Below are positions 48,070-49,595 of a stretch of 64,000 bases of DNA, in pieces. Both the position numbers and the translations under genes were made by a program. How positions within the stretch are numbered: position 1 is the first letter of the stretch; each line of letters opens with the position of its first letter. The notes beneath the pieces are model-generated. The model made no database searches. It saw nothing but the letters and a program-made list of their open reading frames with translations, and had not been told where the DNA came from. The DNA comes from Oscillospiraceae bacterium (lineage in GTDB: Bacteria; Bacillota; Clostridia; Oscillospirales; JAAYXM01), in the NCBI GenBank assembly GCA_017421025.1, contig JAFQME010000003.1, positions 1 through 64,000 of the forward strand. Reading direction: 5' to 3'.

Positions 48070-48098
48070 TTGACAAATTTATTGCGTTTGCGTATAAT
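48070..48098 (+). promoter_or_regulatory. Sigma-A promoter of tRNA-Val
   Basis: TTGACA (48070-48075), 17-base spacer, TATAAT (48093-48098): perfect consensus, 20 bases before the tRNA. Confidence 0.9.
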
Positions 48099-48118: not shown

Positions 48119-48194
48119 GGACGATTAGCTCAGCTGGTAGAGCATTCGCTTGACGTGCGAAGGGTCAGCGGTTCGAACCCGTTATCGTCCACCA
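48119..48194 (+). tRNA. tRNA-Val (anticodon GAC), CCA encoded
   Basis: A 76-base cloverleaf. Acceptor GGACGAT/ATCGTCC, D stem GCTC/GAGC, anticodon stem TTCGC/GCGAA with loop TTGACGT (anticodon GAC, Val codons GUC/GUU), T arm AGCGG-TTCGAAC-CCGTT, then A-CCA. The last 21 bases of the tRNA plus 8 bases of flank (48174-48202) are repeated at 48315-48343. Confidence 0.97.
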
Positions 48195-48202
48195 CATAAA
48201 AG
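48174..48202 (+). repeat. 29-bp direct repeat, copy 1 (tRNA-Val 3' end)
   Basis: cgaacccgttatcgtccacc and the following 9 bases are identical to 48315-48343. tRNA 3' ends are classic integration targets, and a downstream duplicate is what attL/attR would look like. Confidence 0.85.
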
Positions 48203-48229
48203 AGGATAGTCATTCGACTATCCTCTTTT
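48198..48229 (+). terminator. Terminator of tRNA-Val
   Basis: Perfect 14-base arms (48198-48211, 48216-48229) followed by TGTTTTTTGA. Confidence 0.85.
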
Positions 48230-48314
48230 GTTTTTTGATATGATGGTTCGAAAGCCGGCTCTTAGAAACAGTCCGGTGGACTGTTTCAACCGGCGTGGCT
48301 TTTCCGCAGAAAAG
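48230..48314. repeat. Hairpin-rich interval between the two tRNA 3'-end copies
   Basis: 85 bases with nested inverted repeats: gaaacagtcc-ggt-ggactgtttc at the tip, then gccgg/ccggc and aaagcc/ggcttt outside it. A tRNA-like ggttcgaaa occurs at the left edge. No open reading frame. It may be a miniature repeat or a decayed tRNA/integration remnant. Confidence 0.6.
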
Positions 48315-48343
48315 CGAACCCGTTATCGTCCACCACATAAAAG
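48315..48343 (+). repeat. 29-bp direct repeat, copy 2
   Basis: Second copy of 48174-48202. It is followed by its own terminator hairpin (aaaagcagatgg/ccatctgctttt, 48339-48368, then TTGTTTTTC). Confidence 0.85.
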
Positions 48344-48368
48344 CAGATGGATTGTGCCATCTGCTTTT
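48339..48368 (+). terminator. Terminator following the second tRNA 3'-end copy
   Basis: Twelve-base perfect arms (48339-48350, 48357-48368) and a T-rich tail. Same layout as the first copy (tRNA end, then terminator) but a different stem sequence. Confidence 0.8.
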
Positions 48369-48407: not shown

Positions 48408-48432
48408 TTGACAGTATATATATATATATAAT
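48408..48432 (+). promoter_or_regulatory. Promoter with (TA)8 in its spacer, upstream of the stalk/YD-repeat gene
   Basis: TTGACA (48408-48413), then G and eight TA dinucleotides (48415-48430), then AT, creating TATAAT at 48427-48432. The spacer is only 13 bases at this repeat number; two more TA units would make it 17. A dinucleotide tract between -35 and -10 is the known phase-variation design of the Haemophilus hif promoters. Confidence 0.65.
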
Positions 48433-48521
48433 TGAGGTATCACTTTTCTGCACTTTTCGGATCAAAACGAAGAGGGGTGTAAAACGTGGAATCTTCAAAA
48501 ACAGAAAGGATCGTAAGAAAC

Positions 48522-49595
48522 ATGAAATCAATCAGAAAGACACTTTGTGTCCTGCTCACAGTTTGTATGCTGTTTGCAATGATGACTCCTGCAATGGCAA
48601 GTGATGTCATCAAAGTTCGTGTCGGCGGTGAACTGATCGACTTTGATGTTCAGCCCCGCATCATCAACGGCAGAACCATGGGTCCCCTCCGTGCAATTTT
48701 CGAAGCGCTTGGCGCTTCTGTCAATTGGGACGGTGCAACCAAAACCGTCACCTCCACCAAGGGTGGCACCACCATCAAATTGACGATCGACAATCCCACC
48801 ATGGATGTAAACGGCACCGGGGTGACACTTGACTCCCCCGCTTGCATCATTGATGGAAGAACTTTGGTTCCGGTCAGAGCGATTTCCGAAGCATTCAAGT
48901 TAACCGTTGACTGGATTGCTTCCACCAAAACCGTCAAGGTCAAAACCAAAGTTTCTGTCCCGGCGCAAAAGATTTCTTACGACGGCAGCACAACTACTTA
49001 CCACTATGATGAAGCAGGAAACTGTGTTCTCGAGGAATTCTCAGAGGGTGGTTGGCGTAAAAATGGCTATGACAAAAACGGGAATTGGATTTCCTCGGAA
49101 TACGATCACGGATACACAGTGAAATACGTGTATAATGACTATGATAAATTGATTTATCAGGAAGATAACAACGGAAATTGGACAAAATACAACTATGACA
49201 AAAAGGGGAATTTGATTTCCGAAGAATCATCTGACGATTCAAATCGTAAATACACCTATGACGGGCAAAACAATTTGATTTTCAAAGAATTTGGTTCTGT
49301 TTGGCTCAAATACACCTACGACACAGACGGCAAACTTTTAACCCTAGAACATTCGAATGGTTATTTATACACCTACACATACGATGCCATCGGAAATGAA
49401 ATTCTCGAGCAATCCGATGATGGTTGGTGGCAAAAATCATCCTATGACAGCGATGGGAAGCTGATTTCGGAAACCACTTCCGATGGTAGCACAACAACTT
49501 ACACTTACGATAGTGAAGGGTATTTATTGGAAGAAATAAGCCGTGATTCCGATGGAAATACCACCACAACAAAATACAAAGTTATTATTAAGTAA
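48522..49595 (+). CDS. Secreted protein: copper amine oxidase-type stalk domain plus nine YD repeats
   Basis: 357 residues from ATG 48522, where a signal peptide MKSIRKTLCVLLTVCMLF begins, as in the giant secreted proteins. A GTG at 48486 with a better-spaced GAGGGG would add 12 residues and is possible. The stalk (Cu amine oxidase N-terminal-like) domain spans about 30-150, with IINGRTMGPLRAIFEALGA and IIDGRTLVPVRAISEAF. Then nine repeats of about 21 residues (Y.YD..G.L..E) fill about 160-350, like RHS/YD repeats but with no RHS core or toxin tail. Probably a surface or secreted binding protein. Confidence 0.85.
   Translation: MKSIRKTLCVLLTVCMLFAMMTPAMASDVIKVRVGGELIDFDVQPRIINGRTMGPLRAIFEALGASVNWDGATKTVTSTKGGTTIKLTIDNPTMDVNGTGVTLDSPACIIDGRTLVPVRAISEAFKLTVDWIASTKTVKVKTKVSVPAQKISYDGSTTTYHYDEAGNCVLEEFSEGGWRKNGYDKNGNWISSEYDHGYTVKYVYNDYDKLIYQEDNNGNWTKYNYDKKGNLISEESSDDSNRKYTYDGQNNLIFKEFGSVWLKYTYDTDGKLLTLEHSNGYLYTYTYDAIGNEILEQSDDGWWQKSSYDSDGKLISETTSDGSTTTYTYDSEGYLLEEISRDSDGNTTTTKYKVIIK

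Follow-up and report, generated by a model that had tools for sequence, protein, structure and literature searches.

A TA-repeat tract in a promoter spacer as a candidate phase-variation switch for a secreted stalk/YD-repeat protein, with recurrent TTGACA-linked TA tracts in Clostridia

The closest described counterparts of the promoter considered here come from a Gram-negative pathogen and a mollicute. The divergent hifA/hifB fimbrial promoters of Haemophilus influenzae are described as carrying (TA)9–11 in the first account of them (van Ham 1993), with the unit number altering the spacing between the -35 and -10 elements (cited in PMC2651432, PMC3899988). A dinucleotide insertion or deletion in a repetitive promoter region is reported to toggle the Vmm surface protein of Mycoplasma mycoides subsp. 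mycoides SC ON and OFF (Persson 2002, cited in PMC2628566, PMC3053259), and poly-TA tracts precede several lipoprotein genes of one M. mycoides genome, their number differing among strains (PMC2628566, PMC3053259). Slippage also alters transcription of surface proteins in Neisseria meningitidis, in a poly-G spacer at porA and in an upstream TAAA tract at nadA, the latter working via the NadR repressor (PMC3899988, PMC2791445). In Clostridioides difficile, surface and regulatory genes are phase-variable through invertible promoters (PMC11868660, PMC8890394), and DNA inversion was the form of Clostridia phase variation found in the open-access literature searched. Searches of that literature for slippage phase variation in Clostridia/Firmicutes found no report of a TA-tract promoter, which is weak evidence of absence.

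The locus examined here lies in a 64-kb stretch of DNA from an Oscillospiraceae bacterium, referred to as the window. Its resemblance to hifA/hifB lies in a promoter TA tract whose length would change the -35/-10 spacing; hif controls a surface structure, and the gene controlled at this locus has a predicted secreted product. The features of the region, all on the forward strand, are as follows.

48070–48098, + strand: promoter of the tRNA-Val(GAC) gene itself, 12/12 consensus with a 17-base spacer (promoter scan)
48119–48194, + strand: tRNA-Val(GAC), the upstream neighbour
48339–48368, + strand: terminator-like hairpin directly 5' of the TA-tract promoter, parting it from the tRNA-Val unit
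48408–48413, + strand: -35 element TTGACA, perfect consensus (sequence match)
48414, + strand: single G separating the -35 element from the TA tract (sequence)
48415–48430, + strand: (TA)8 tract of perfect units that fills the spacer and merges into the -10 element; candidate slippage switch
48427–48432, + strand: TATAAT, a consensus -10 made up of the last TA units and the following AT, with 13 bases between it and the -35 element as assembled
48505–48510, + strand: Shine-Dalgarno-like AAAGGA (RBS-like; sequence)
48522–49595, + strand: secreted protein of 357 aa with a signal peptide, a PF07833 stalk domain (Cu_amine_oxidN1) and RHS/YD repeats

The arrangement TTGACA-G-(TA)8-AT described in the initial annotation, with TATAAT 13 bases from the -35 hexamer, was recovered at exactly these coordinates, and the tract is thus placed between recognisable -35 and -10 hexamers. 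Its further claim that ten units would give 17-base spacing holds by arithmetic: eight TA units give a spacer of 13, nine of 15, ten of 17 and eleven of 19, so that changes of a few units carry the spacing through the 17-base optimum. Eight units is the assembled length, the consensus of one draft assembly that is 77% complete. The tract is far beyond chance, being the sole TA run of more than three units in the window (48.5% GC), in which (TA)8 is expected about 2e-7 times per 64 kb from the window's own dinucleotide frequencies. The chance of finding a perfect TTGACA within 0–6 bases of (TA)8 is about 0.003, and across both strands of the whole 1.53 Mb draft assembly the pattern TTGACA-N0-6-(TA)6 occurs at this one site only. 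Between 14 and 19 bases from TTGACA no other -10-like hexamer exceeded 2/6 matches, and a generic promoter scan, which allows 16–18-base spacers only, called no forward-strand promoter at the TA-tract locus.

Downstream, the stalk/YD gene runs from an ATG at 48522 to a stop codon ending at 49595 with an intact reading frame and an RBS, in agreement with the earlier statement that the tract precedes a secreted stalk/YD-repeat gene. Rfam matched the tRNA alone in the region and gave no riboswitch leader, and phage BLAST matches were confined to the tRNA stretch. Two repeats were observed upstream. Positions 48174–48207, comprising the tRNA-Val 3' end and the start of its terminator, are repeated 141 bases downstream at 48315–48348 (94% over 34 bases), a pattern resembling the decayed remnant of an inserted element that had the tRNA end as its target. 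Between both copies lies a palindrome-like stretch at 48266–48286 (AACAGTCCGGTGGACTGTTT), which recurs in contigs C17, C25 and C27 of the genome, some copies lying no more than about 200 bases from the start of a contig; this suggests a repeat dispersed through the genome at which the assembly is interrupted.

The locus is probably a hif/vmm-type promoter subject to phase variation and one case of a recurrent class-wide design. Slipped-strand mispairing would add or remove TA units between the perfect -35 and the perfect -10, shifting their spacing in two-base steps. The prediction for the assembled (TA)8 form, with its 13-base spacer, is an OFF or very weak promoter; with nine units it would be weak, with ten fully ON and with eleven weak again, and the gene under the putative switch would be that for the secreted stalk/YD-repeat protein. 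Eight TA units stand at the short end for slippage. Elsewhere in the class, TTGACA-N-(TA)n promoters appear to have arisen independently, ahead of secreted, lipo- or surface proteins that are unrelated to one another.

Across 394 genomes of the order, TTGACA followed after 0–6 bases by at least six TA units was found at 14 places in 13 genomes, with the reversed control pattern yielding 0. Moving the tract to 7–20 bases from TTGACA gave four further places only, despite twice as many offsets (binomial p ~1e-4), and of the 23 distinct tracts of at least eight units listed for the order, a rare length, 7 directly follow TTGACA. Tracts of this kind are therefore enriched beside TTGACA. A search of the class added nine new loci, all outside the original order. 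The initial annotation had called the arrangement unusual in Clostridia, which is true per genome, since about 3% of the genomes in the order have it; the design is nevertheless recurrent and not unique. Some long tracts lie upstream of the -35 element, outside the spacer, either just upstream (L095 and, on the minus strand, L112) or about 38 bases upstream (L096–L098). At one further locus (L101, G044:C20) a (TA)10 tract is flanked by the inverted repeat AGCAT...ATGCT and may form a cruciform or hairpin instead of serving as a promoter tract.

Genes behind these tracts were compared with those behind consensus promoters of the same genomes; a single rule for ORFs and signal peptides was applied to both sets, the signal-peptide caller being a home-made heuristic. 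A signal peptide or lipobox was present in 8 of the 14 genes behind TTGACA-linked tracts versus 3 of 30 controls (p = 0.0017), a count that includes L045, read as a membrane-anchored diadenylate-cyclase-like protein, so that the true number is nearer seven. Likewise, 14 of 23 long tracts had a signal-peptide or lipoprotein gene on one side, versus 4 of 30 consensus promoters (p = 0.0004). This bias in the order was noticed before testing, and the class-level test alone was fixed in advance. In the other orders the prediction held, with 6 of 9 loci by rule (p = 0.0017) and 7 of 9 by eye (p = 0.0002) versus the control, the seventh having a borderline N-terminal hydrophobic segment. The products include a second PF07833 stalk protein (L177), a protein with GA modules (L179) and one with a PMP-type repeat (L182) at class level, camelysin/TasA-like paralogues (L052, L058) and dockerin proteins (L094, L095) in the order, and an extracellular binding protein (L100); the gene at L054 is truncated by a contig end, and its visible start resembles a signal peptide. 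These proteins are mutually unrelated, which points to repeated independent origin of the tracts. A family of small proteins (MRI[TI][IL]DTDK-like, about 64–77 aa) was also observed, in three genomes and on one viral contig, downstream of TTGACA-(TA)n promoters (L046, L047, L126, L180); two members scanned had no Pfam match, and the leaders of the family show an apparent hairpin and T-run.

Tract length is labile at other loci. A viral TTGACA-A-(TA)n site found on four contigs from different metagenomes, 98% identical over 3 kb, has eight units in three and seven in one; since three near-identical contigs all carry eight, this viral tract is not hypervariable. Length-tolerant scans for four further viral tracts returned single copies only. 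The promoters of an orthologous transporter have eight units in one species and nine in another, and within one genus the orthologous secreted proteins of three species (L096, L097, L098) are preceded by (TA)11, (TA)13 and (TA)13 tracts that lie upstream of TTGACA. Two camelysin-like paralogues of one genome differ in the same way, with nine versus eight units and nearly identical leaders, and five related genes (four of the same genome and one of another genome in the genus) carry conventional TTGACA promoters with spacers of about 16–17 bases.

Where TATAAT is formed by the tract end, in 17 tracts that include two alleles of one viral locus, the spacers measure 11 (4 tracts), 13 (6), 14 (1), 15 (4) and 19 (2; L181 and L182, longer than the optimum). 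No spacer of 16–18 occurs in this set, and the presumed ON length of 17 was never seen. Such spacers fit length-variable promoters and would not be produced by constant selection for a working promoter. Either the OFF state predominates in sequenced genomes, or the tract-end TATAAT is not the relevant -10 or the simple spacing model is incomplete. The proposal of phase variation made in the initial annotation is partly supported: the architecture is as it describes and recurs far above controls, mainly before signal-peptide genes, but no tract-end TATAAT in the set lies at exactly 17 bases. At L045, L047, L054 and L173 a usable -10 independent of the tract end is present at 16–18 bases.

Attempts to find further copies of the locus bear on how the short tract is to be read. 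The promoter region was unmatched in the one same-genus genome, genomes of the family contained merely paralogues of the stalk domain, and flank patterns tolerant of any tract length gave unrelated chance matches only in public genome contigs and viral contigs. Absence of the locus from the same-genus genome would suit a relic: a promoter once of the form TTGACA-17-TATAAT, in which slippage shortened the TA-rich spacer and silenced the gene in this strain, a one-way decay with no maintained switch. The short length is also the sole length known at the locus, and most tracts in the set fall below the 17-base optimum. Relics would not, however, be expected to concentrate before secreted-protein genes in several orders, longer-than-optimal tracts exist at the two loci with a spacer of 19, and the frame downstream is undamaged and still preceded by an RBS; a relic is accordingly considered unlikely.

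Similarly improbable is an ordinary promoter whose AT-rich spacer happens to be a TA run of neutral length, transcription starting from another -35/-10 pair or with the help of an activator. A TATAAT seed can grow into a TA run, and four loci of the set do have a tract-independent -10, but the present locus offers no alternative hexamer at 14–19 bases and no forward-strand call in the promoter scan, and a perfect TTGACA directly next to the tract is recurrent where the controls gave none, with a bias in gene class. Tracts placed upstream of the -35 element (L095, L112 and L096–L098), where spacing cannot be the mechanism, raise the thought that the repeat acts otherwise: it might be flexible or melt easily, bind a protein, or serve as an UP-like element that adjusts expression gradually according to its length. 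For this locus such a role is very improbable, because here and at most TTGACA-linked loci the tract occupies the spacer itself, so that each two-base step necessarily alters the spacing.

The phase-variable reading extends to a broader proposal, to which we give even weight for and against: that Clostridia-type bacteria have a dispersed, recombinase-free form of phase variation, in which TA tracts repeatedly arise in the spacer or just upstream of promoters of unrelated secreted and surface proteins (stalk/YD, camelysin/TasA-like, GA-module, dockerin and lipoproteins), are mostly parked OFF and have been overlooked since there are one or two per genome. If true, a slippage promoter switch would be a second route to phase variation in these bacteria, needing no recombinase and invisible to surveys of invertible DNA. 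TA-unit lengths can be counted directly in existing metagenome reads, and the association of TTGACA-(TA)n with secreted genes provides a simple search rule for candidate phase-variable surface proteins of uncultured species.

Compared with the systems described above, the kind of switch is already known, and it is the recurrence across a class before secreted proteins that is apparently undescribed. The hif system is one bidirectional promoter of a Gram-negative pathogen for which switching was shown, whereas the present promoter is unidirectional, belongs to another lineage, precedes a secreted stalk/YD gene and is a candidate switch. Vmm shares with the locus a dinucleotide repeat in the promoter of a surface or secreted protein gene; its host is a mollicute with an AT-rich genome in which mainly lipoprotein genes are concerned, whereas here the window has 48.5% GC, the genome holds a single such tract and unrelated genes are involved across the class. 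The porA tract lies in the spacer, as at this locus, although the repeat units of porA and nadA differ from TA, and the upstream TA tracts of L095–L098 resemble nadA in position, unlike the spacer tracts. C. difficile likewise provides phase variation within Clostridia, but by recombinase-driven inversion rather than slippage.
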